A stretch of 57,288 bases of DNA, from the NCBI GenBank assembly GCA_003331985.1, contig QOQK01000005.1, forward strand, positions 1 to 57,288, read 5' to 3'. The translations under genes and the position numbers were made by a program. The notes under the pieces were generated by a model, which searched no databases, was not told the DNA's origin, and saw only the letters and a program-made list of their open reading frames with translations. This stretch comes from PS1 clade bacterium (GTDB lineage Bacteria; Pseudomonadota; Alphaproteobacteria; RS24). Below, one piece after another: positions 36,203-56,368 of this stretch; the stretch's first letter is position 1; the number at the start of each line of letters is the position of its first letter.

Positions 36203-38269
36203 CTATTGAGTTGAGCCCGATTTATGCTGAGGTGAAAACCAGATGGGCGATGTCCATGCCATTTCGTGGATGTAATCGTCAACCGGCAGGTTCTTACATT
36301 TTTCTTCACGCACATTATCAGGTAGCCCATCGCAATAAGTTTTGTGCCAACGTGGTGACACCTGCTCTACGACACGAAGGTAATAATAGCTGTCAGTGTT
36401 GGGCATATAATCCGGGTCTGAAAACACGGCGCATAGCCTGTTGGCGCCTTCCGGATTATTTTTATTGTTTGTGGTCACAACATCGATAACTTGGTTATGT
36501 TTTTGTCCGGCCTCGTCAATCCAGCCTTTAACAAGTTGAAGCCGTTCCAGCGGTTTTGACATTGGGTCAGCCTTGGCTTCGAGTAAAAAGTTAAAAGAGG
36601 TCTGTTGTGGGGGTAAATGTGCGCCCATAGGTGTGCCGTTTGCATAGGCTTGTTCGAGCCAGTCGGATTGCTCACAAATATTTTCGTCATAGCGTCCGGC
36701 AAAAAAGCGTGGGGCGATGCGTGTGCCGGATGTACCAAAAGTTTCTCGGCGCTTCATGGAATGAAAAAGCGCATCCCGTGAATTTTCAACAGCCCATACA
36801 CCTGCCAGACCTCCGGGATTGGTGCGAATGGCATCCGTATGGCCGACATCTGCTGTGCTAAAGCGACCGGAGAGGCCAAGTTCTGTCTTTTTATGACCCG
36901 GCCAGCGTGCTTCCTCTGTGCTACCGGAAGTGGAGATATGAGTATCAGTGCTACCGATGAAACCGAATTCATGCGGGTTTACCCCACGCTCTTGTTGAAC
37001 CTGCATACCTTCCAAAAGTGCGCCACGGGCAAAATCACGGCTCGATAGACAGCCGCCATTATAAAAACCTGTTTTAGGGTCGCGGTGGTCTTCACTACAT
37101 TCTGGTGTATTCGTCGATCCGAATTTAGGCACGAGCCGGTTCAAGGCAAAATCCAGTTCTTTGTTACCAAAATCCCGGCGTTTCTCGATATCGCAGAGCT
37201 CGTCAACGTCTCCCAAAATATCTGTTACCCTGTTTAGACATTCCGAGTACCCTTTGTGTTGGGCAATTTCGTAAAGTCTTTCATAACTCCGGGTCAGCGC
37301 ATATGAAGCGTAACGGGAGGCGTCTGACATATTCTCAACTTCACGAGGGTTAAACATATTACCCCCTGAGAGATTTGCATTATGCGGGATAACGATAACG
37401 TCACATGCCTCTCGACCGCCCCGACAAGCCTCTTCCAAGTGACCAAAAAGTTGATATGGGAAAGGAAACATATGGTGTGACGGCGGAAGGTCCGGAACAT
37501 CTGTGTTGCGGAAAATCAAATTACGATGAGTGTGCTTGGCATCAGGACTTCTTGTATATTCGAGACCGACAAAAGATGTGAAGCGACAAGCCTCAGTTTT
37601 GTCATCTGCAGCTTCTGCGGCTTGGATAATTTGTTGCCAGACAATTTTATCTGCCGCAATGCAATCTTTATTCTCAGGCCCGCAAACAGCCTCGCGTCTT
37701 TTGGGCGTTAAATCGGCATTAATTTGGTTAAACACACGGACGCCTTCAAAACCCCCACCGCGAAAGGTATCACAGGCACGGGTGTCATGGCCGGCAAAAG
37801 CTCCGGGGTTACGGCAGATATAACCTTCTCCCAACGCTTCTGCGTGGTCGGTGACGGCGGCAAAATCAAGCGCTCGGAGAAGCTGGAACTTTTGAGGGGC
37901 ATCAGCTGGTGGATCAGGAAGAGCTATCGCCTCGCCTTTGGCAAAGCGATAAGCTGCCTCCGGGAAAGTGCGTGTCCCTTCAGGAAAAGCATCTGCCGAC
38001 AGTGCAGTATGGATATGCAGATCACCATAATAGGCATTCTTCAGCCCATTGTTATTAATGCAATTTTTATTTGGCTCTGTGTATTCAGGTGACGGGTCGT
38101 AACCGAACGCATATGTTTCGGGCTCAGATTTGGGCGATTGTGGCAGATTAATAATTGTTGTTGCGTCTATCTCATAATCCGGAATGCTTGATAGAATTTT
38201 ATACGCAATAAAAAGCAAAACTAGCAAAGCGATTATGATTGCGAATACACGCCCTATTATTTTAAGCAT
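36203..38269 (-). CDS. DUF3604 domain protein, membrane-anchored (PHP-like)
   Basis: 688-aa protein with an N-terminal membrane anchor (residues 5-27) and a large extracytoplasmic DUF3604 domain. PHP-type metal-binding motifs are visible: GDLHIHTALSADA (HIH at 85-87), DFAAVTDHAEALG, VGLEYT, VIPHNANLSGGNMF and GSTDTHISTSG. The start at 38269 follows GGGAGAAA; the open frame upstream has no signal. A metal-dependent hydrolase or phosphoesterase is likely but unproven. A second DUF3604 gene with a lipoprotein anchor lies at 40982. Many Cys in the middle (for example DTRACDTF, ENKDCIAA) suggest disulfides, fitting a periplasmic site. Confidence 0.88.
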   Translation of the reverse strand: MLKIIGRVFAIIIALLVLLFIAYKILSSIPDYEIDATTIINLPQSPKSEPETYAFGYDPSPEYTEPNKNCINNNGLKNAYYGDLHIHTALSADAFPEGTRTFPEAAYRFAKGEAIALPDPPADAPQKFQLLRALDFAAVTDHAEALGEGYICRNPGAFAGHDTRACDTFRGGGFEGVRVFNQINADLTPKRREAVCGPENKDCIAADKIVWQQIIQAAEAADDKTEACRFTSFVGLEYTRSPDAKHTHRNLIFRNTDVPDLPPSHHMFPFPYQLFGHLEEACRGGREACDVIVIPHNANLSGGNMFNPREVENMSDASRYASYALTRSYERLYEIAQHKGYSECLNRVTDILGDVDELCDIEKRRDFGNKELDFALNRLVPKFGSTNTPECSEDHRDPKTGFYNGGCLSSRDFARGALLEGMQVQQERGVNPHEFGFIGSTDTHISTSGSTEEARWPGHKKTELGLSGRFSTADVGHTDAIRTNPGGLAGVWAVENSRDALFHSMKRRETFGTSGTRIAPRFFAGRYDENICEQSDWLEQAYANGTPMGAHLPPQQTSFNFLLEAKADPMSKPLERLQLVKGWIDEAGQKHNQVIDVVTTNNKNNPEGANRLCAVFSDPDYMPNTDSYYYLRVVEQVSPRWHKTYCDGLPDNVREEKCKNLPVDDYIHEMAWTSPIWFSPQHKSGSTQ

Positions 38270-38438
38270 TTTCTCTCCCTGTATCTCACCCTCTACCCCC
38301 CACTTCATGATCGTTATATTGAATATGGAGAAAGCTAAGATACCTAATTTTAACCATTTATAGGAACTGTTCTAAACATGTTTTTGAGGGATTCTTAAAA
38401 TTGTTAACATTTACATCTATGCTAAAGTGACATTGTTG

Positions 38439-40859: not shown

Positions 40860-40981
40860 ATCAGCCCCCAAAAGTGTTTTAAGAACTTATCAATAGAATA
40901 GATGATTAAAACAAGCTTTTTCGATAGGATTAATAAAATATTTAAATGGTTAAAATACCTATTAAATGGAGGGATAATAAT

Positions 40982-42937
40982 ATGACAATGTCTCAGTTGG
41001 GTCGCCATGGCCTATCTTTACTTTTTGTAACTATTTTGAGCGTCAGTATGATTGGTTGCGGTGATCCGCAAGAAACTCAAAAGCAAGGAAATAGTGGCGT
41101 TACTTCTCTTTCAAATCAGATGCTGCCTTCAGGGTCTATGCCAGATGGGGTTTATTGGGGTGATCTACATGTTCATTCAAGACTATCGATGGATTCATTC
41201 TCGTTTGGTAATCGGATGATGACTGCGGATGATGCATTTAAGTTTGCAAAAGGGGAGCCCGTTGAGGCGCACACTGGGGACATCGCGCAATTAAGAAAAC
41301 CGCTGGATTTTTTGTTGGTGTCTGATCACGCAGAATTTTTGGGGGTTATTGCGAGTATTATGGATCGCAAGCACGGCATCGAAACAACCGCACTTGGCAA
41401 GCGATGGAGTGGTTGGTTAGAGGATAACAATATTCAGAGTATTATTAATGAATGGGTGGGTTCATTTGATGCTGATACATCATCCCCAGATGCAAAACCA
41501 AAGATTGAGTATCCAGATGAGGCCTTTTTCAAAGGAGTTTGGGGTGAGATGGTTGAGACTGCTGAAAGGCACAACGACCCAGGAAAATTTTCAGCTTTTT
41601 CAGGTTATGAGTGGACTTCAATGATTGACGGTGACAACATGCATCGTGTGGTTATTTTTAGGGACGGTGCAGAGAAAACTCTCGGCGCTATCCCGGTTTC
41701 ATCAACTGAAAATAGTGATCCAGAATATCTATGGGAAAGGCTGGAGGCCTATGAAAATCAGACTGGCGGCGAGGTTCTAGCTATCCCTCATAACAGTAAT
41801 TTGTCTGAGGGCCGGATGTATTCTAGTGAGCGCGTGTCTGGTACAATTTTTGACACCAAATATGCTAAAACCCGAATTAGATGGGAGCCAGTGCTTGAGA
41901 TGACACAGGTAAAGGGGGACTCTGAAACACACCCACTTTTATCGCCAGATGATCCTTTTGCAGATTTTGAGAGATGGGATGAAACAGACATCAACTCTAA
42001 TGTTATACCAGACGATAAAAAGATAGAAGTTTACACGGGGAGTTATGCACGTCCTGCCCTTAAAACTGGCCTCGCCATGGAAGAAAGCTTGGGAGTGAAC
42101 CCCTTTAAATTTGGTATGATTGGTAGTACAGATTCACACACGGTTATGGCAACGGCTGACAGTGATAATTATTATGGTAAATTTGTTGACTCCGAGCCAT
42201 CGCCCGAGCGTTTAATGAGTAAAATGGGTGGCATATTGTGGAATAACAGAATGCTCACTGCGGCAGGCTATGCCGCCGTTTGGGCAGAGGAAAATTCGCG
42301 TGAAGCAATTTTTGACGCAATTAAACGTAAAGAAGTTTTTGCTACTACTGGTCCGCGTATAGTTTTACGCTTTTTCGGCGGTTGGGATTTTGAAAATGCC
42401 GATCTCGAGCTACCCGATTATGCTACGCAGGGTTATAAGAGAGGCGTTCCAATGGGTGGAGACTTAACGGGATCAGACTTAGCCGTACAAAGCTCCAAAA
42501 ACCTCTCACCGCGTTTTATAATTACGGCTAGTAAAGATCCAGATGGAGCAAACCTCGATAGAGCGCAAATCGTCAAGGGTTGGCTAGATGATGATGGCTC
42601 ATTACATGAGAAAGTCTTTAATGTTGCCTGGTCTGGCCCACGAACTTTGGATAATGTGTCGGGGGGTCTTGCACCTGTTGGGTCAACCGTTAATGTTGCC
42701 AAGGCAAGTTACACAAATACAATTGGTGCAGAAAACCTTGCAACCGTATGGAGAGACCCAGAGTTTGACCCTTCTTTAAGAGCCTTTTATTATGTTCGTG
42801 TGCTGGAAATACCAACACCACGATGGACAACTTATGACGCACAAAGATTTAATCTTGATTTGCCTGACGATATTCCGGTTTCAATTCAGGAAAGAGTGTA
42901 CTCATCGCCAATTTGGTTCACGCCAGCTGTGAATTAG
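40982..42937 (+). CDS. DUF3604 domain lipoprotein (PHP-like)
   Basis: 651-aa lipoprotein: signal segment with lipobox MIGC (Cys26), a Ser/Gln-rich linker, then the DUF3604 domain. Metal-binding motifs: YWGDLHVHSRLSMDS (HVH at 63-65), FLLVSDHAEFLG, FSGYEWTS, AIPHNSNLSEGRMY and MIGSTDSHTVMA. The start at 40982 follows GGAGGG. It heads a plus-strand run with a parvulin and a HupE/UreJ gene that meets a TonB receptor. A periplasmic or outer-membrane metal-dependent hydrolase is the best guess; catalytic activity is not established for the family, to my knowledge. Confidence 0.9.
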   Translation: MTMSQLGRHGLSLLFVTILSVSMIGCGDPQETQKQGNSGVTSLSNQMLPSGSMPDGVYWGDLHVHSRLSMDSFSFGNRMMTADDAFKFAKGEPVEAHTGDIAQLRKPLDFLLVSDHAEFLGVIASIMDRKHGIETTALGKRWSGWLEDNNIQSIINEWVGSFDADTSSPDAKPKIEYPDEAFFKGVWGEMVETAERHNDPGKFSAFSGYEWTSMIDGDNMHRVVIFRDGAEKTLGAIPVSSTENSDPEYLWERLEAYENQTGGEVLAIPHNSNLSEGRMYSSERVSGTIFDTKYAKTRIRWEPVLEMTQVKGDSETHPLLSPDDPFADFERWDETDINSNVIPDDKKIEVYTGSYARPALKTGLAMEESLGVNPFKFGMIGSTDSHTVMATADSDNYYGKFVDSEPSPERLMSKMGGILWNNRMLTAAGYAAVWAEENSREAIFDAIKRKEVFATTGPRIVLRFFGGWDFENADLELPDYATQGYKRGVPMGGDLTGSDLAVQSSKNLSPRFIITASKDPDGANLDRAQIVKGWLDDDGSLHEKVFNVAWSGPRTLDNVSGGLAPVGSTVNVAKASYTNTIGAENLATVWRDPEFDPSLRAFYYVRVLEIPTPRWTTYDAQRFNLDLPDDIPVSIQERVYSSPIWFTPAVN

Positions 42938-43008
42938 AGTAATGAAATCAGAAGTATGGTTGATAAACCTTAAAGCCTCTTGGCATTTTTATAAGCATAT
43001 TGAGTAAA

Positions 43009-43848
43009 ATGAAAAGAATTATGGCCATGCTGCTCAAAGAGCCGCTATTTATTTTTGTCCTTTTTTCGATTTTGTTGTTCTGCATTTTTCTTTCGCAAAA
43101 AGCAGTGCCTGATAACGTTATAATTGTGTCAGAGGAGCGCTTGAAAGAATTCTATCAATATAGTCGCCAAAGTTTTGGATTGGCCGCCATATCAAACAAG
43201 CTGCAGGTTATGTCAACTGAAGAACGAAATGAGCTCACCGAGGAATTTATCCGCGCCGAAGTGCTTGTTAGAGAAGCCCGCCGTATGGGTTTAGATGAGG
43301 GTGATTTTATAATTCGCCAGCGCTTGATACAGAAGTTAGAGTTTCTCTCAGACACTCAAGCAAACATTCCTGAAAAAGCTGAAGCATTATTAGTGGATTG
43401 GTTTGAGAAAAATAAAGACAATTATCGTCAGCCTTCTGAAATAAGTTTTACACATATTTACTTTATTCACGAAGGGAGAGAAAAAGCTCAAGAAGTATTG
43501 GCAGCCCTTATTAGCCAAGATCCTATGGCGATTACCGAGCAGGGGAATAGATTCCTTTATCACAAATCTTATCAACGAAAGTCACAAGAAGAAATTACCG
43601 CCCATTTTGGTGAAAATTTTGCCTCGTCTGTATTCGACCTTCCATTCAGTTCAGAGTGGCAGGGGCCATTAGCCTCTCGCCACGGTTATCATTTGGTGCG
43701 AATAACTGATAAAAGTGAAGCACAAATCCCAGAACTTATGGATGTACGCCAGAAGGTGCTCTTTGATCTTAAGCTTTCACTTAGCTTAGCGTCGCGTAAT
43801 GAATATGCCGATACTCTGCGCGATAAATACACGATTATTTCTAAGTAA
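43009..43848 (+). CDS. membrane-anchored parvulin-type peptidylprolyl isomerase (PpiC/SurA-like)
   Basis: 279-aa protein with one N-terminal membrane helix (about residues 10-29), a helical SurA-N-like segment (EERNELTEEFIRAEVLVREA) and a C-terminal parvulin-type domain (residues 140-245: EISFTHIYF ... WQGPLASRHGYHLVRI). It would act in the periplasm as a folding catalyst or chaperone. The start is an ATG at 43009, with a TTG three codons before as an alternative; neither has a strong ribosome site. It lies 71 bases after DUF3604 and 2 bases before HupE/UreJ, so DUF3604 is the obvious client. Confidence 0.88.
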   Translation: MKRIMAMLLKEPLFIFVLFSILLFCIFLSQKAVPDNVIIVSEERLKEFYQYSRQSFGLAAISNKLQVMSTEERNELTEEFIRAEVLVREARRMGLDEGDFIIRQRLIQKLEFLSDTQANIPEKAEALLVDWFEKNKDNYRQPSEISFTHIYFIHEGREKAQEVLAALISQDPMAITEQGNRFLYHKSYQRKSQEEITAHFGENFASSVFDLPFSSEWQGPLASRHGYHLVRITDKSEAQIPELMDVRQKVLFDLKLSLSLASRNEYADTLRDKYTIISK

Positions 43849-43850
43849 TC

Positions 43851-44894
43851 ATGAACCAGTGTAGTCAATTTATTTTTCTTGTTTTATTTTTAAGCTTATC
43901 CTCCATATCCTCAGCTATTGCTCACGATCCAAGACCAGTGTTGATAGATATTTATCAAGACGATACACGCGCTGGTGAGCTAAAACTAGAATGGAAAATA
44001 CCTGGCTCGCTATCTTCTAACAAGCACCCCCTAATCGGGTTCTCAGATTTTTGTAATGTCACACAAAAATACCCAATTCGGTATACGGGAGAGGCTTTCT
44101 ATGGGGGCGCCAATTTTCTGTGTTCTGGAAACACAACTGGTTCACCATACGTATTGGATCTCATATACCCATTAGGTAATCCATCTCTTTCGAGCTTTAT
44201 AAGGCTGCACGAAAATAACCTTGCAGGTGATAAGCGTACAGCAATGTTCCTGCTTAAGCCGGACGAGCTTTCCTGGTCGATACCTCAGTCACTAGCACCC
44301 TCAAGTGCCTCGCCGTCTTTGATTACGCAGGCTTATCTTGAGTTAGGTTTCAATCATATTTTAAAAGGCTGGGATCATCTCTTGTTTATCATTTGCCTAA
44401 TGGCGTTGTCTCGAATACCTAAAAAAATATTTTTGGCCATTACTGGCTTCACGGTTGGCCACAGTCTTACATTGGCTGCAGCATCTTTGAACATCCTTAC
44501 TCTGCCTGTTATCTATGTTGAAACACTTATTTCATTGAGTATTGTGCTAGTTTGTGTCGAGTTGTTGCAAACTAGCAGAAATACTTTTTCGCGAACCTAC
44601 CCAGTTTTGATTTCCCTGTTTTTCGGGCTGGTGCATGGGCTGGGCTTTGCCAATGAACTTATCAGTATTGGGTTTCCAGAGGATGGGCTGGTTGCGGCAC
44701 TCCTGTTTTTTAATCTCGGGGTCGAGGCTGGGCAACTCGCCTTTGTTGTGCCGCTAATGTTGCTCGGTTTTGCGGCGCGAAGATTTATTGGCTCTTCAGG
44801 CAAACTTTACGAGGGGTTAGGTTACAAGTTTATATTTTTCACAATTGGTTTTATTGCTTGTTACTGGTTTGTTGAGCGAAGCCTGCAATTTTAG
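43851..44894 (+). CDS. HupE/UreJ-family membrane protein
   Basis: 347-aa inner-membrane protein with a cleavable signal peptide (ending AIA-H), a 125-residue extracytoplasmic domain (26-150) and a C-terminal six- to seven-helix HupE/UreJ domain. Family motifs: FNHILKGWDHLLFI (His169, Asp175, His176), TGFTVGHSLTLAA and FFGLVHGLGFA. HupE/UreJ proteins are linked to nickel or cobalt entry; this long form with an outer domain is a distinct sub-group of unknown cargo. The start is 2 bases after the parvulin stop. Confidence 0.9.
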   Translation: MNQCSQFIFLVLFLSLSSISSAIAHDPRPVLIDIYQDDTRAGELKLEWKIPGSLSSNKHPLIGFSDFCNVTQKYPIRYTGEAFYGGANFLCSGNTTGSPYVLDLIYPLGNPSLSSFIRLHENNLAGDKRTAMFLLKPDELSWSIPQSLAPSSASPSLITQAYLELGFNHILKGWDHLLFIICLMALSRIPKKIFLAITGFTVGHSLTLAAASLNILTLPVIYVETLISLSIVLVCVELLQTSRNTFSRTYPVLISLFFGLVHGLGFANELISIGFPEDGLVAALLFFNLGVEAGQLAFVVPLMLLGFAARRFIGSSGKLYEGLGYKFIFFTIGFIACYWFVERSLQF

Positions 44895-44913
44895 GAGTCT
44901 AAATTTAGAACAC

Positions 44914-44944
44914 AAAAAAACCCCCACCCAAGGGCGGGGGTTTT
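44914..44944. terminator. bidirectional terminator between hupE/ureJ-like and TonB receptor genes
   Basis: AAAACCCCC pairs with GGGGGTTTT around a short CC/GG-extended loop. The minus-strand side is followed by seven T residues, the plus side by four. It serves the two convergent genes. Confidence 0.82.
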
Positions 44945-44965
44945 AATCTTGTGTAACCTTATGGC

Positions 44966-47245
44966 TTAGAATTCATATCCAATTTTCATTCCGAAATGCT
45001 GTCTCTTTGCAGGAGCTGCAAATGCGAATGCACCAGCGTCAAATGGGCGAGCAATACGGCCACCCTCTTCTAGGATATCATTACCAAATACAGTAACTCT
45101 GATTTGATTACCGTTTGAGGTTTCAGCACGGAATGTCGCTGACAAATCAAGTGACTCGTATGAGTCAACTTCAACATTTGGACCTTGTGCAAAGTTAAAG
45201 GTCTTCCAGTTTGCCTGACCCCAATATGAGTCACGGCCGCTATAGCTTCCTGATACTGTTAGGTCACCACCAGCTAAGTTGACGTCATAGTCAAAACCAA
45301 AGTTGAAAGTAACTTCAGGGGCCATTCTCAGCTTAGCAATGTCGGAAATATCAACACCGCCGTCATCATAGGAATCATAATCAGAGTCGAGAATACCAAT
45401 TGCAGTATTTAAGCTAAGGTTTTCATTAGCGTAATAACGGCTTTCAATTTCTAAACCCGAGATTGAAACTTCCGCAGCATTAAGACTAAAGGTACAAGTG
45501 GCAGATGCTGCATTACCGCAAACAAGACCATTAGTTGTAACCTGCTCTTGCTTGTCCTTATAGTCGGCCATGAAGGCGGTGATGTTAAATACGAGGGCAT
45601 CTGATGGCTCTAATCTGAGACCAGCTTCGTAGTTAATGACTTCCTCTGTGCCGAAAGGCGCACAAGTTACCGGGTCAGTACAGCGGGCAAAAATACCGCC
45701 ACTTCTAAAGCCGTTAGATACTGAAGCATATACCATTCCGTTGTCGAAGTTTCTTTCAACAATAAAACGATGCTGGATATAATCATCTTCATAAACTTCG
45801 TTAACAGCGTTAGCGAAACCAGCTGCTGGAATAGTTCCAGACCCTTGGAAAGCGAACTTATCTGCCACTGCAGTAGCGCCTGCAAAGTTTCTAACGAAGA
45901 AGTCTTTTTCTTCCTCAGTGTACCTCAAGCCCAGTGTGACTGACCACTCTTCGTCGATGTCGTAAGATACTTCACCGAAAATTGCTGTCGCCTCAAGCTC
46001 TTGCCCTGAAACAAAGTTTTGAACTGGGCCTGACTCTTGGTCGAAGCTTGCATCTAAGTAATAGTAGCCCAAAACATAGCTTAAGGGACCGTCGAAATCA
46101 GAGACGAGTTGGAACTCTTGAGAGAACTGTTCAAATCCAATGTTACGGGTAACGGGGAACACAATAGTTGGAGACCCCCAAGAACTAATTATCATTTGCT
46201 CAAAAGAGTCTTGATCACCTGTAATTGACTTCAGAGTATGGTTACCCAAATCAATGTCAACATTCAATGAAAGGTTCTCAGTTTCATAAGTCATTCCAAA
46301 TGGAGCGGCATCGTATGTTGTAGAGTAGTCATTTGCTGCTGAAAGATCAGCTGATGCGCTTGCACATTTAAGCGGGTCAGCGGGTATGCCAGCCGGCGCA
46401 ATACCAGTACAGAATGTAAACGGTAGTGTGTTAGAAGTTATTGCCAAATTGTTTCTTTGGGATTTGTCATCAACTTCATCATATATAAAGTCTACAGTGA
46501 TGTTATCCGTAACATCAGCATTTAATCTGATGGAATGAGACTGAACATCTTTAAAATCACTGTCATTTCTTCCAGTGGTTACGTTGTACATCCAGTTGTC
46601 GGCATTAAGATCTCTAACAGCAATCTTCAAGCCAGCTCTGTCGCCAATTGGAAAGTTGACAACTGCTTGGAGATCTTTTGTGTTGTCTTCTTCAACACCA
46701 ACTTGAAACTTTGCACCAAGCTCTCTTGTAGGCTTCGAGCGATTGATATTAATCACGCCGCCGATAGTGTTACGACCGTAAAGTGTGCCTTGAGGTCCGC
46801 GAAGGACTTCAATTGACTCAACATCAAATAAATCAAGATTAACACCACCATTGTTGGCGGCAAACACACCGTCAACTGTGACGCCAACTGCCGGGTCATT
46901 TGATTTTTCAGTATCATCATAATTAAGGCCACGAATTGAAGCAGAAAGACCTGCCCCAGCGTATGCCATGTCATGAAGCGCAACGTTAGGAACAAGTTTT
47001 CCTAAGTCTTGAGTCATTGGGATGTTTCCCTTTTGAAGCTGCGCAGCAGTAAGTGCTGACACTGCAACTGGGACATCCTGAATTGACTCGGAACGCTTAC
47101 GTGCCGTTACAATGATTTCGTCTGTCGCCTGAGCCTGAGCCTCGGTGACGAGCGACAAGTTTGTGTGTGTACTTATCATCGACACAACAAATGCACCAGC
47201 CGCAAAACCTGCCACTAATTTTGGCAGTTTTTTTGTGAATTGCAT
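44966..47245 (-). CDS. TonB-dependent receptor
   Basis: 759-aa outer-membrane receptor: signal peptide (to about residue 40), TonB box region DEIIVTARKRSESIQDVPVAVS, plug domain with VTVDGVFAANNGGVNLDLF and VESIEVLRGPQGTLYGRNTIGG, a long beta barrel with external loops, and terminal KIGYEF ending in Phe. This is the common large-substrate (FecA-unlike) class lacking an extra signalling domain. No Fur-like box is evident upstream, so the cargo is probably an organic compound rather than a siderophore. It converges on the DUF3604/parvulin/HupE run. GGGAGG lies 7 bases before the ATG. Confidence 0.95.
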   Translation of the reverse strand: MQFTKKLPKLVAGFAAGAFVVSMISTHTNLSLVTEAQAQATDEIIVTARKRSESIQDVPVAVSALTAAQLQKGNIPMTQDLGKLVPNVALHDMAYAGAGLSASIRGLNYDDTEKSNDPAVGVTVDGVFAANNGGVNLDLFDVESIEVLRGPQGTLYGRNTIGGVININRSKPTRELGAKFQVGVEEDNTKDLQAVVNFPIGDRAGLKIAVRDLNADNWMYNVTTGRNDSDFKDVQSHSIRLNADVTDNITVDFIYDEVDDKSQRNNLAITSNTLPFTFCTGIAPAGIPADPLKCASASADLSAANDYSTTYDAAPFGMTYETENLSLNVDIDLGNHTLKSITGDQDSFEQMIISSWGSPTIVFPVTRNIGFEQFSQEFQLVSDFDGPLSYVLGYYYLDASFDQESGPVQNFVSGQELEATAIFGEVSYDIDEEWSVTLGLRYTEEEKDFFVRNFAGATAVADKFAFQGSGTIPAAGFANAVNEVYEDDYIQHRFIVERNFDNGMVYASVSNGFRSGGIFARCTDPVTCAPFGTEEVINYEAGLRLEPSDALVFNITAFMADYKDKQEQVTTNGLVCGNAASATCTFSLNAAEVSISGLEIESRYYANENLSLNTAIGILDSDYDSYDDGGVDISDIAKLRMAPEVTFNFGFDYDVNLAGGDLTVSGSYSGRDSYWGQANWKTFNFAQGPNVEVDSYESLDLSATFRAETSNGNQIRVTVFGNDILEEGGRIARPFDAGAFAFAAPAKRQHFGMKIGYEF

Positions 47246-47428
47246 AGTTTCACCCTCCCTTAAATAAACAATAAATCAGATTAATAAGTAATTTCTGACT
47301 TGGCTGAGTTTACAAATAAAGAGTTGGAGCAAACCTGAATAATAGACTAGTTTAAGAACTATTGGCATTTCCAAATAATTTTGTTGCAAATATGCATCAC
47401 AACTGATGGGTTGCTCTCGTTTGGGAAA

Positions 47429-48394
47429 TTAACCGAAGATATCATTCAGAAAAATCTCGATTTCCTGCTTGCACCGCTGGGCCGGAGCCGAAGTCGGTGC
47501 AATGCCGTCAAATCCATGGCAAACCCCTGCATAAACATGCAAATCAGTTGGTACGCCGGCCTGTATCAAGTTGCCGGCATAAAGAATATCTTCTCCGGCG
47601 AACAAATCGAGGTCACCGACCACCATAAAGGTTTTGGGTAGGCCGGATAAATTCACCGCGCGGGCCGCAGCGGCGTAGGCGGGTATGTCGGGCTGACCAA
47701 ACAACTCCCCAAGATAGGATTGCCAACCAAAAAGGTTACTGGCGCGTTGCCAAACAAAAAAATCATCATCCGGGTTGGTGGCGGGTGCTATATTCGTATC
47801 GTCCAGCATGGGGTAGACCAGCACCTGCCCGCATAAATCATGTCCGGCTTCGTCTCTGTTCAAAAGACTGAGGCCAGCGGCAAGCCCGCCACCTGCGCTG
47901 ACGCCAAGAATGGCGACTTTATTTTGATCAATCGTGAAGCTTTTAGCCTCACTCATCAGCAGATTAAGCGCGGCGTAACAATCATGGAGCGGTGCGGGGT
48001 AAGCATGTTCCGGTGCCAAGCGATAATCGACAACAGCGACGGCGCAGTTGAGCGTCAGGGAGAGTTGCTTCGCCATATAGCCGTCGCTTTCGGCCGAGCC
48101 AAGAATATAGCCCCCGCCATGAACCCATAAAAGACAGGGTAATTGTGCAGTCGTGTCTGTTGGGCGATGTAAAAATACCGGCACCTCGAAACCATCTTGT
48201 GCATTTTTGGCGATTAGTTTGTGTGTTTCAATCCCCTCAATAGGAGGCTGATCTTTTGCCATGTCAGCCGCGATAACCCCATAGGCAGCCCGCTTCTCCT
48301 GATAGTTCTCCGCCGTTAGGGGCTTGGACATCAGGTCGGGGAGGTGATCGAGAATGTTGGCAATGTCATCAATAAGGTGCTTGGTGGAGGTCAT
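47429..48394 (-). CDS. alpha/beta hydrolase, HSL-family esterase
   Basis: 321-aa carboxylesterase of the hormone-sensitive-lipase family. Oxyanion motif HGGGYILGS (from residue 92), nucleophile Ser166 in GVSAGGG, acid Asp in VGDLDLFAGED and His in VCHGFDGI. The YRLAPEHAYPAPL segment is typical. No signal peptide, so cytosolic. It is co-directional with a GFA gene upstream (32 bases) and lies between the TonB receptor and a Rieske oxygenase gene; it could cleave an ester in the imported substrate. Confidence 0.94.
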   Translation of the reverse strand: MTSTKHLIDDIANILDHLPDLMSKPLTAENYQEKRAAYGVIAADMAKDQPPIEGIETHKLIAKNAQDGFEVPVFLHRPTDTTAQLPCLLWVHGGGYILGSAESDGYMAKQLSLTLNCAVAVVDYRLAPEHAYPAPLHDCYAALNLLMSEAKSFTIDQNKVAILGVSAGGGLAAGLSLLNRDEAGHDLCGQVLVYPMLDDTNIAPATNPDDDFFVWQRASNLFGWQSYLGELFGQPDIPAYAAAARAVNLSGLPKTFMVVGDLDLFAGEDILYAGNLIQAGVPTDLHVYAGVCHGFDGIAPTSAPAQRCKQEIEIFLNDIFG

Positions 48395-49019: not shown

Positions 49020-50381
49020 ATGTCACTAACTATGGAAGAACGTAACATTACGCCATCGGAGGCCTATCCGGGCGATAAAACAACCACCAAAGCCGCCGAA
49101 CCGGAGCTTCTCAGGGTCGAGATTACGGGCGACAGATATACCAGCAAGGAATTTAAAGACCAGGAATGGACACATATGTGGCGTCGGGTCTGGATGATTG
49201 CCGGCATGGCAGATGATTGTGCCGAGCCGGGCGATTTCTTTACATCTGATCTAGGGCATGAGCCTCTACTTTTTGTGCGCGGTAAGGATGGCGTTAACGG
49301 CTTTTACAATATCTGCCAGCATCGCGGCGCCAAGCTTGTGCTCCAAGAAAAAGGCATGATGGACAGTTTTTCCTGCATTTATCATGGTTGGAAATATGGC
49401 TTAGAGGGGGAGCTTATCGAAGCGCAGGATCGTGATGATTTTGAAAGAGACCCTTGTGAGCATGTTCGACTAGCGGATTTCAGAACTGAAATATTCGCCG
49501 GTTTTGTCTGGTACTGTCTTGATGATGACGCGCCCGGCCTTGATGAATTTTTGGGTGATATGAAAGAGCAGCTAGAAAGCTGGCAGCTTAATGATGGTTT
49601 TCGCGTTGAGCATTTCACGGTTGAATTACCTTGTAACTGGAAAGTCGTAATTGATAATTTTCAGGAGGGCTATCACATCCGCACATTGCACCCACAGCTC
49701 ATGGAAACGGTAAACGAAAATAAAGAGTCTGTTCAATATGACCTTTATGATGGCGGGCATTCTCGCATGATATTGTTAGGTTGCGACCCCAGTCCTAATT
49801 TCAAGCCGCAAAATACATTGCCGGACTCCATCACGCATATGTTGACGAAATGGGACATTGACCCTGAGCAGTATAAAGACAAGCATGGAGAAATCCGGCC
49901 CGCTCTGCAGCAGACGAAACGTGATAAGTCTGCCGAGCGGGGAAAAGATTTTAGCCATCTTTCAGATGCTCAACTTACAGATAATTTCCTCTATGACCTT
50001 TTCCCGAGTTGTGCGCTGAGTGTTTATCCAGAAGGTGAATATGTCTGGCTCTTACGTTCACGCCCACATCCGGATGATCCCGAAAAATGCATTTTTGATT
50101 ATTGGACCATTGCCAAGTTTCCTGAAGGTGAGGACACTTTATACTGGGAACATATGGATATGACCCTGACCCGCGATGCTGAAATTGAGCATAAACAGTT
50201 CAAATGGGGAGAGGAGCCTATCAGCTTTGGTATTGATCAGGATGTGGATATTGCACCTATCGTCCAGCAGGGCATGCGGTCTCACGGTTTTAAGAAAGCC
50301 ATTTTGTGCAACCAAGAACGCCGGGTTCAATTTTTGCACGACAATATAGACCGCTACATTAAAGGTGATTTGGGGCGCTAA
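49020..50381 (+). CDS. Rieske non-heme iron oxygenase, alpha subunit
   Basis: 453-aa ring-hydroxylating oxygenase large subunit. Rieske ligands Cys99/His101 and Cys119/His122 (CQHRGAK ... CIYHGWKYG). Mononuclear iron ligands His219 and His224 (DNFQEGYHIRTLHPQL), with a C-terminal Asp in GIDQDVDIAPIVQQG as the likely third ligand. GAGGAGG lies 5 bases before the ATG. An NTF2-like gene follows. No ferredoxin or reductase gene is visible, so electrons must come from elsewhere. Substrate unknown. Confidence 0.94.
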   Translation: MSLTMEERNITPSEAYPGDKTTTKAAEPELLRVEITGDRYTSKEFKDQEWTHMWRRVWMIAGMADDCAEPGDFFTSDLGHEPLLFVRGKDGVNGFYNICQHRGAKLVLQEKGMMDSFSCIYHGWKYGLEGELIEAQDRDDFERDPCEHVRLADFRTEIFAGFVWYCLDDDAPGLDEFLGDMKEQLESWQLNDGFRVEHFTVELPCNWKVVIDNFQEGYHIRTLHPQLMETVNENKESVQYDLYDGGHSRMILLGCDPSPNFKPQNTLPDSITHMLTKWDIDPEQYKDKHGEIRPALQQTKRDKSAERGKDFSHLSDAQLTDNFLYDLFPSCALSVYPEGEYVWLLRSRPHPDDPEKCIFDYWTIAKFPEGEDTLYWEHMDMTLTRDAEIEHKQFKWGEEPISFGIDQDVDIAPIVQQGMRSHGFKKAILCNQERRVQFLHDNIDRYIKGDLGR

Positions 50382-54795: not shown

Positions 54796-54961
54796 TATAT
54801 CCCCCTGTTTTATCTTCTCTGGATTAACTATCCAGCTTAATGAACAAAAATTAAACCTATGCTTTGGTTAAGGTTGTGGGTTTTGCTATTTTTAGGCAGT
54901 ATGATTATCAGGAAGGCGGATTATTCCGTAATGCGTCACACAAAATATTCAGGGGGATATG

Positions 54962-56368
54962 ATGTCGGAGAAAACTTCAAATCCGTCAGACGAGGATCTG
55001 ACAAGACAAGCAAAGGGAGTCAACTGGGTTGATTTGATGGAAGAGGACGCGCGTCCCGTTCCAGATTTTCTTAAAGAGCCAAGTTATGAATATCTGGGAT
55101 CGGACCCCATTCCAGCAAGCCGTTATACATCTGTCGAGTTTGAAAATCTCGAGAAAGAAAAAATGTGGCCAAACATCTGGCAGTTTGCTGCGAGGGAAGA
55201 AGATCTGCTCGAGCCGGGTGATTATGTGGTCTTTGATAATGCAGACCGGACATTCTTAATTGTCCGTCAGGATGATGGTGGTGTCAGAGCTTTTCACAAT
55301 GTCTGTTTACACCGAGGCCGTAAGCTTAGAACTGAAGATGGTTGTGCTGATAAATTCCAGTGCCCTTTCCATGGCTACACATGGAATAAAGACGGTAGCT
55401 TGAATGAGATTCCAAATCGTTGGGACTTTGGTCATTTGAGTGATGAAAAAATGAAACTGCCAGAAGCTGAAGTCGGACGCTGGGGCGGCTATATTTTTAT
55501 CAAAGAAAATCCGGGTGGCCCTACGCTTGAGGAGTTTTTGGCCCCTTTGCCGGAGCATTTTAAGCGCTGGCGGCATGAAGAGTGTGCAACCGTTTTATGG
55601 GTTGGCAAAGTAGTTCCAGCCAATTGGAAGGTAACAGCAGAAGCCTTTATGGAAGCTTGGCACACGCTGGTCACGCACCCGCAGATTTTGCCGTTTACGG
55701 GTGATGAAAACAGTGCCTATTGGTTCTGGGGAGACAATGTGAATGTCAATCTTGTGCCATTTGGCGTTATCTCACCTCATATTGATCCGACGGATAAAAA
55801 ACAGCAGTGGATTGTAGATGAGTTTGTGAAATATAATGGTCGTTCAGCAGAAAATTACGATCCAGACAGCGACCCGTTTAAAATTGAAGTACCTGAAGGT
55901 GTTTCCGCGCGTCGTGCTTTAGGATCTAATTTCAGAGAATATTACACTGAAATTTTTGGTCATGACCATAGTGAGGCGACGGATGCTGAGCTTCTTGATG
56001 CGATTGTTTATAATGTATTCCCGAACTTCGCGCCTTGGGGCGGGTTCATGCCGAACATTGTTTACCGCTGGAAGCCATGGCAAGACCCGGATCATTGCTT
56101 GATGGAAGTGCGGATTTTATCTCGCATTCCACCCGGTCAGCCAATGCCTGCGAGCCCGCCTATGAAGTTTCTTTCTGTTGATCAGAAATGGACTGAAGCT
56201 CCTGAGTTGGGAGCGCTTGGCGAGGTTTTTGAGCAGGATATGGAAAACTTACCTTATGTTCAGGAAGGGCTTAAGGCCTCCAAAAATGGTGAGGTGCAAC
56301 TTGGCGATTATCAGGAAATTCGTATTCGTCAGTTCCATCAAACATTAGAAAAATACGTGGAGAAATAG
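54962..56368 (+). CDS. Rieske non-heme iron oxygenase, alpha subunit (second)
   Basis: 468-aa oxygenase large subunit. Rieske ligands in NVCLHRGRKL and FQCPFHGYTWN (about residues 115-138); mononuclear iron ligands in EAFMEAWHTLVTHPQ (His near 234 and 239). The region before the Rieske domain is about 45 residues longer than in the first alpha subunit in the window, and the two differ widely. Of two adjacent ATGs I prefer the second, 5 bases after AGGGGG. A ThuA-like gene follows by 4 bases, not a beta subunit. No reductase is visible. Confidence 0.94.
   Translation: MSEKTSNPSDEDLTRQAKGVNWVDLMEEDARPVPDFLKEPSYEYLGSDPIPASRYTSVEFENLEKEKMWPNIWQFAAREEDLLEPGDYVVFDNADRTFLIVRQDDGGVRAFHNVCLHRGRKLRTEDGCADKFQCPFHGYTWNKDGSLNEIPNRWDFGHLSDEKMKLPEAEVGRWGGYIFIKENPGGPTLEEFLAPLPEHFKRWRHEECATVLWVGKVVPANWKVTAEAFMEAWHTLVTHPQILPFTGDENSAYWFWGDNVNVNLVPFGVISPHIDPTDKKQQWIVDEFVKYNGRSAENYDPDSDPFKIEVPEGVSARRALGSNFREYYTEIFGHDHSEATDAELLDAIVYNVFPNFAPWGGFMPNIVYRWKPWQDPDHCLMEVRILSRIPPGQPMPASPPMKFLSVDQKWTEAPELGALGEVFEQDMENLPYVQEGLKASKNGEVQLGDYQEIRIRQFHQTLEKYVEK

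Follow-up and report, generated by a model that had tools for sequence, protein, structure and literature searches.

A predicted exported PHP-fold protein of the DUF3604 family and its association with a membrane parvulin and a long-form HupE/UreJ_2 permease

Gene organization

The window analysed here, positions 1–57,288 of contig QOQK01000005.1 from a PS1 clade alphaproteobacterium (GCA_003331985.1), carries a forward-strand triad of genes that encode a DUF3604 protein, a parvulin and a HupE/UreJ_2 permease. The source is a 1.32-Mb genome bin that is 78% complete; by the DUF3604 protein, it is close to the Rhodobiaceae bin CPC66 (98% identical) and to the alphaproteobacterium IMCC14465 (77%). 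The first gene (40982–42937, with an alternative in-frame ATG at 40946) encodes a predicted exported lipoprotein that matches PF12228 with 758.6 bits (gathering score 20.4) over 588 of the 591 profile positions (4–591). After 71 bases it is followed by a membrane-anchored parvulin of the Rotamase_2 type (43009–43848), which starts at ATG 43009, with TTG 43000 as another possible start, and two bases further on by the long-form permease (43851–44894; PF13795, 146.6 bits). A TonB-dependent receptor lies convergent to the triad on the reverse strand (44966–47245) and contains the plug and β-barrel domains PF07715 and PF00593, its best NCBIfam match being far under the cut-off. Between the permease and the receptor, a Rho-independent terminator at 44917–44944 (AAAACCCCCACCCAAGGGCGGGGGTTTT) forms a stem of 12 pairs, preceded by an A run and followed by a T run, and is thus usable from both sides. 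Translation starts and signal peptides were assigned by eye. The four genes, the two short gaps and the common terminator are all as described in a first-pass annotation of the sequence, which had proposed that the four products form one envelope module.

The DUF3604 protein

The N-terminal region of the DUF3604 protein runs to SVSMIGC, a plausible although not ideal lipobox with Cys26 as the candidate lipid-attachment site. Nine candidate metal ligands (His63, His65, Asp71, His116, Glu210, His221, His270, Asp384 and His386) span positions 41168–42139 of the window, from the codon for His63 at 41168 to that for His386 at 42137. All 72 sequences examined carry each of them (72 of 72), and a second DUF3604 protein in the window is among these, so the conservation of metal residues, which the first-pass annotation had named as a test of its proposal, is borne out. 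Their order (H, H, D, H, E, H, H, D, H) fits the published nine-ligand consensus of PHP proteins (H, H, D/H, H, E, H, C/H, D/N, H; PMC3666897 Table 1).

Searches of the PDB by sequence gave no credible relative of DUF3604 and hence no solved structure. An AlphaFold2 model has a mean predicted local distance difference test score of 90.7 and a predicted template-modelling (TM) score of 0.89. The only PDB match to this model with E < 0.001 in Foldseek is the PHP phosphoesterase TM0559 (PDB entry 2anu; probability 1.00, E = 6.5 × 10−4, target TM score 0.53–0.59). The Foldseek matches listed also include RNase AM, likewise a PHP protein. A β-rich C-terminal domain follows the PHP part. Comparison with YcdX, a PHP phosphatase from E. 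coli, yields four pairs of local motifs (DLHVHS/DLHMHT, SDH/TDH, IPHN/ISHP and STDSHT/GSDSHT); since alignment of the DUF3604 profile to the single YcdX sequence with hhalign covered motif I alone, the correspondence of the ligands was set by motif order. On the predicted fold, DUF3604 is best read as a hydrolase of the PHP superfamily with a putative three-metal site. The protein would be exported, judging from its N-terminal signals, and it is probably catalytic, with phosphoester hydrolysis as the natural expectation. In the open-access literature searched (open-licence papers, so that an earlier mention elsewhere is possible), DUF3604 is named in one paper, as a label in a table of Chlamydia mutants.

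Co-occurrence with the parvulin and the permease

We searched 142 alphaproteobacterial genomes, approximately one per family, for DUF3604 and for the two partners with profiles built from their alignments (A2 for HupE and A3 for the parvulin). Counts are based on these clean alignments; an iterated HupE model took in an odd antisense open reading frame (L089). Both profiles separate their families by a gap in score: full-length HupE proteins score above 270 bits, with the next best at 208, and cassette parvulins (one of which is split by a frame break) above 150 bits, with the next best at 129. The HupE and the parvulin matches coincide at 16 places, spread over 11 genomes that all encode a full-length DUF3604. 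The pair is thus found in 11 of the 12 genomes with full-length DUF3604 (all but G052) and in none of the other 130, and in a set of 299 Pseudomonadota genomes it is found in 16 of 16 with full-length DUF3604 and in one of 283 without (Fisher p = 1.5 × 10−15 and 1.3 × 10−25, respectively, values which overstate the significance somewhat because some genomes are common to both sets and all are treated as independent). In the single genome among the 283 (G293), the pair lies next to a fragment of a broken DUF3604, which leaves none of 282.

Linkage was examined in 79 loci from GTDB representative contigs, obtained with the DUF3604 protein as the sole query and thus unselected for partners. About half of them (39 of 79) also contain the parvulin, HupE or both, almost always in the order DUF3604–parvulin–HupE or parvulin–HupE–DUF3604 on one strand. 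A set of 41 genomes was searched in which the sampled DUF3604 locus lacks a complete pair beside it; both proteins are encoded elsewhere in 35 of them. Beyond Pseudomonadota, co-occurrence is read from the 79 loci and this 41-genome set. The contigs and genome bins analysed are incomplete, and the genomes are related to one another. Triads occur in Alphaproteobacteria and Gammaproteobacteria, in Rhizobiales, Ruegeria and Aromatoleum, and in Acidobacteriota, Planctomycetota, Verrucomicrobiota, Nitrospirota and Myxococcota, so that the marine and sphingomonad range suggested by the first-pass annotation was too narrow. Its impression that the set recurs was itself an understatement as regards DUF3604, the parvulin and the long-form HupE, for which co-occurrence is far above background and the DUF3604 metal residues are conserved; for the receptor it holds only in part.

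The parvulin and HupE frames overlap by four bases in 23 of the 36 loci that have both, also where DUF3604 does not adjoin, so the two genes look translationally coupled, and more tightly to each other than to DUF3604. A tree built from 72 DUF3604 proteins shows 13 switches between linked and unlinked, no fewer than 12 of them forced by well supported branches, which indicates that the association has been broken or made many times; the interleaving of phyla on the same tree suggests horizontal movement. DUF3604 is often present in several copies and the pair in one or two per genome, usually one (the ratio is approximately 7:1 in G091, 4:1 in G009 and 3:1 in G304), as expected of a shared accessory.

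Further DUF3604 genes

The source genome contains five DUF3604 genes. Two items omitted from the first-pass annotation are a second, divergent DUF3604 in the window (36203–38308, reverse strand; 701 residues, Pfam 450.8 bits), which is anchored in the membrane at its N-terminus and shares all nine ligands, and a further, very divergent triad elsewhere in the genome (contig C1, approximately 43413–47905; 6414–10906 of L012). The second DUF3604 lies approximately 3 kb upstream of the triad, a position that is kept in the clade. Genes resembling crotonase, MaoC and enoyl reductase lie between the two, and the same layout is repeated in L017, L024 and apparently L016. The members of the divergent triad are a DUF3604-like protein of 759 residues (41 bits to Pfam), a parvulin with 19% identity to that of the window and a HupE of 434 residues. 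On a third contig (C2; 5594–9780 of L011), a DUF3604 gene adjoins a TonB receptor on the same strand, with no parvulin or HupE there.

Tandem or near-tandem DUF3604 copies were noted at L039 (three copies), L043, L045, L052, L064 and L073, several of them beside a single parvulin–HupE pair. Weakly matching proteins of 750–800 residues lie near similar parvulin–HupE pairs in two further genomes (G054 and G123). Others, mostly of 750–830 residues and matching chiefly at profile positions 376–460, are found in eight genomes without the pair (G001, G034, G065, G079, G080, G087, G096 and G122). These last proteins are perhaps a separate PHP family.

The parvulin

The parvulin matches the PpiC-type domain PF13145 with 52.4 bits, and its profile matches 3rfw (E = 10−13), HP0175, SurA and PrsA. 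Like PEB4, HP0175, SurA and PrsA, it consists of an N-terminal region and a PpiC-type domain and is exported or membrane-anchored. It differs from these proteins in being tied to one gene context, in the strongly conserved EPLxHF motif of its N-terminal transmembrane segment (EPLxxF) and in its first catalytic-type histidine: the G-x-H motif (His231) is invariant, while the first conserved histidine (in FTHIY in the window protein) is replaced by glutamine in most members of alignment A3.

The long-form HupE/UreJ_2 permease

The permease comprises a signal peptide, a β-sandwich outer domain and a six-helix membrane domain (mean model confidence 83.3 on the same local scale as above). In the membrane domain His169-X5-Asp175-His176, His204 and His262 are invariant (30 of 30 for the first three, which lie on the first membrane helix); we take HX5DH to be the nickel-permease signature. 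With the cleavage site placed by eye (SSAIA/HDPRP in the window), the predicted mature N-terminus is a histidine (His25) in 27 of 30 aligned sequences. A two-histidine brace of the CopC or lytic polysaccharide monooxygenase kind was considered and rejected, as the outer domain has no second conserved histidine; only a site of the mono-histidine type is therefore possible.

No credible relative of the permease was found in the PDB by sequence, and Foldseek returned nothing for the model at E = 0.001. The protein resembles the anglerase Ang-1 in its PF13795 membrane domain behind a β-sandwich and in its predicted mature N-terminal histidine, whereas its N-domain is shorter. The anglerase neighbours are DUF4198, indigoidine A-like and PfkB proteins, and the main text describing them mentions neither DUF3604 nor an isomerase (PMC12537917). 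Neither the protein nor its profile matched Ang-1 (PDB entry 9GCE) at E = 10 in a PDB copy that was not checked for this entry. We therefore call the DUF3604-linked HupE anglerase-like and not a member of Ang-1. The N-domain of a related HupE_UreJ_2 protein with an N-terminal histidine binds copper with a dissociation constant of 74 nM and nickel with one of 220 nM (PMC12537917). Other long HupE/UreJ_2 proteins (L106–L124) have no cassette parvulin or DUF3604 in their 1.5-kb flanks, save for a weak parvulin at L117, and inspection of these neighbours by eye did not reveal a common partner gene for the parvulin-less relatives.

The TonB-dependent receptor and other neighbours

TonB receptors occupy 17 of the 144 positions that immediately flank DUF3604 or the triad and five of the 857 remaining positions in these loci, an enrichment with p = 3 × 10−11. 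Such adjacency is seen in perhaps half a dozen lineages, and the order of receptor and triad is conserved in L016, L017, L021 and L024, four loci related to the window. To this extent the place of the receptor in the module has support, but most triads have no adjacent receptor and the closest relatives of the window receptor in other genomes are not near DUF3604. The receptor is a conserved neighbour within the IMCC14465 clade and an optional, lineage-specific partner, not a constant part of the module.

Two Rieske-type oxygenase α-subunits are encoded downstream in the window (49020–50381 and 54959–56368), and similar genes recur in several marine loci. As a constant neighbour this family was rejected (six of 280 positions near DUF3604 compared with 14 of 721 elsewhere in the same loci, p = 0.8). 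A Pfam scan of 134 flanking proteins found only LysR, Rieske and clade-specific genes as neighbours common across lineages.

Functional interpretation

The genomic association suggests that DUF3604, the parvulin and HupE work as one unit. The near-obligate two-way dependence, the presence of one pair for several enzymes and the tight coupling of parvulin and HupE favour an exported PHP hydrolase with a trinuclear metal site, served by a dedicated parvulin–HupE unit for folding and metal handling, a reading to which we give roughly an even chance. The parvulin and the long-form HupE would then be one membrane accessory unit dedicated to DUF3604: the parvulin would fold the exported enzyme, its putative client, and HupE, through its N-terminal histidine and the His/Asp sites of its membrane domain, may capture or move a transition metal for the operation, and possibly the metallation, of DUF3604. 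Where present, the TonB receptor, optional and lineage-specific as it is, may deliver the substrate. It is possible, though we hold it only tentatively, that metallation of DUF3604 depends on a periplasm-facing complex of parvulin and anglerase-like protein, with the HupE-type protein as a dedicated metal donor and not a general cytoplasmic importer.

Two functional parallels come from other families. E. coli YcdX is a zinc phosphatase with a chaperone, YcdY, and such partners occur in cis or in trans (PMC4464133); the ycdX–ycdY operon is seen in the E. coli sequence. Like the triad as read here, ycdX–ycdY–ycdZ combines in one operon a PHP enzyme, its own maturation chaperone and a protein of the inner membrane, YcdZ (PMC4464133). 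YcdX is, however, a single-domain protein with no export signal, whereas DUF3604 is predicted to be exported and has approximately 650 residues, large insertions and the C-terminal β-domain; the chaperone is TorD-like and not a parvulin, and YcdZ belongs to DUF1097 and not to HupE. The cyanobacterial sodN–sodX–sodT set likewise brings together a metalloenzyme (nickel superoxide dismutase), a maturation factor (a peptidase) and a metal (nickel) permease (PMC4284471), although the protein families are unrelated.

Several observations weigh against a dedicated folding and metal-handling unit. By these searches, six of the 41 genomes lack the pair: G437, G440, G441, G460 and G464 lack HupE or both proteins and G459 has a divergent version only, several of the six being incomplete bins. 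Aspartate stands in place of the mature N-terminal histidine of HupE in L064, L071 and L079, which represent Bradyrhizobium and one further member. The glutamine at the first parvulin histidine means that isomerase activity may be weak in most members, with chaperone action perhaps the larger part of the protein's role. Finally, known members of the HupE family are importers into the cytoplasm (PMC4284471; PMC12537917), while DUF3604 has export signals, so that HupE would have to release metal into the periplasm in order to supply it, or else contribute indirectly.

This mismatch makes a system of metal release and uptake the main rival, in which DUF3604 would hydrolyse a metal-bearing or phosphorylated periplasmic ligand brought in by TonB receptors, HupE would import the freed metal into the cytoplasm and the parvulin would fold either the HupE outer domain or the enzyme. 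The importer role of known HupE family members and the enrichment of TonB receptors beside DUF3604 agree with it, and one permease could be fed by several DUF3604 copies. A general importer would be expected without DUF3604 too, yet the long-form HupE of this profile was not found in 412 of 413 genome searches without full-length DUF3604; with the adjacent receptor missing from most triads and the window receptor not of a DUF3604-linked subfamily, we consider this system unlikely. The same absence of the pair from essentially all genomes without DUF3604, together with the many gains or losses of linkage, argues against the pair being a general factor in envelope biogenesis that co-occurs with DUF3604 through common lifestyle or horizontal transfer, which we rate as quite improbable even though the interleaved phyla imply that the genes probably move between lineages. 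A module of substrate import and hydrolysis centred on the receptor and comprising all four genes would account for the enriched adjacency and for the order kept in the four relatives. As most triads have no adjacent receptor, the nearest relatives of this one are in genomes without DUF3604 and the receptor itself stands on the opposite strand behind the common terminator, a receptor-centred module seems very improbable.

Implications

Families that are annotated separately, as a protein of unknown function, an isomerase and a hydrogenase or urease accessory, form one near-obligate set over several phyla, and many HupE/UreJ annotations are thereby explained without a role as accessory to hydrogenase or urease. 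DUF3604 gains a predicted fold, a candidate active site and two partners, so that direct tests become possible. For metal biology, the set offers a case in which a permease and an exported enzyme are apparently tied together.

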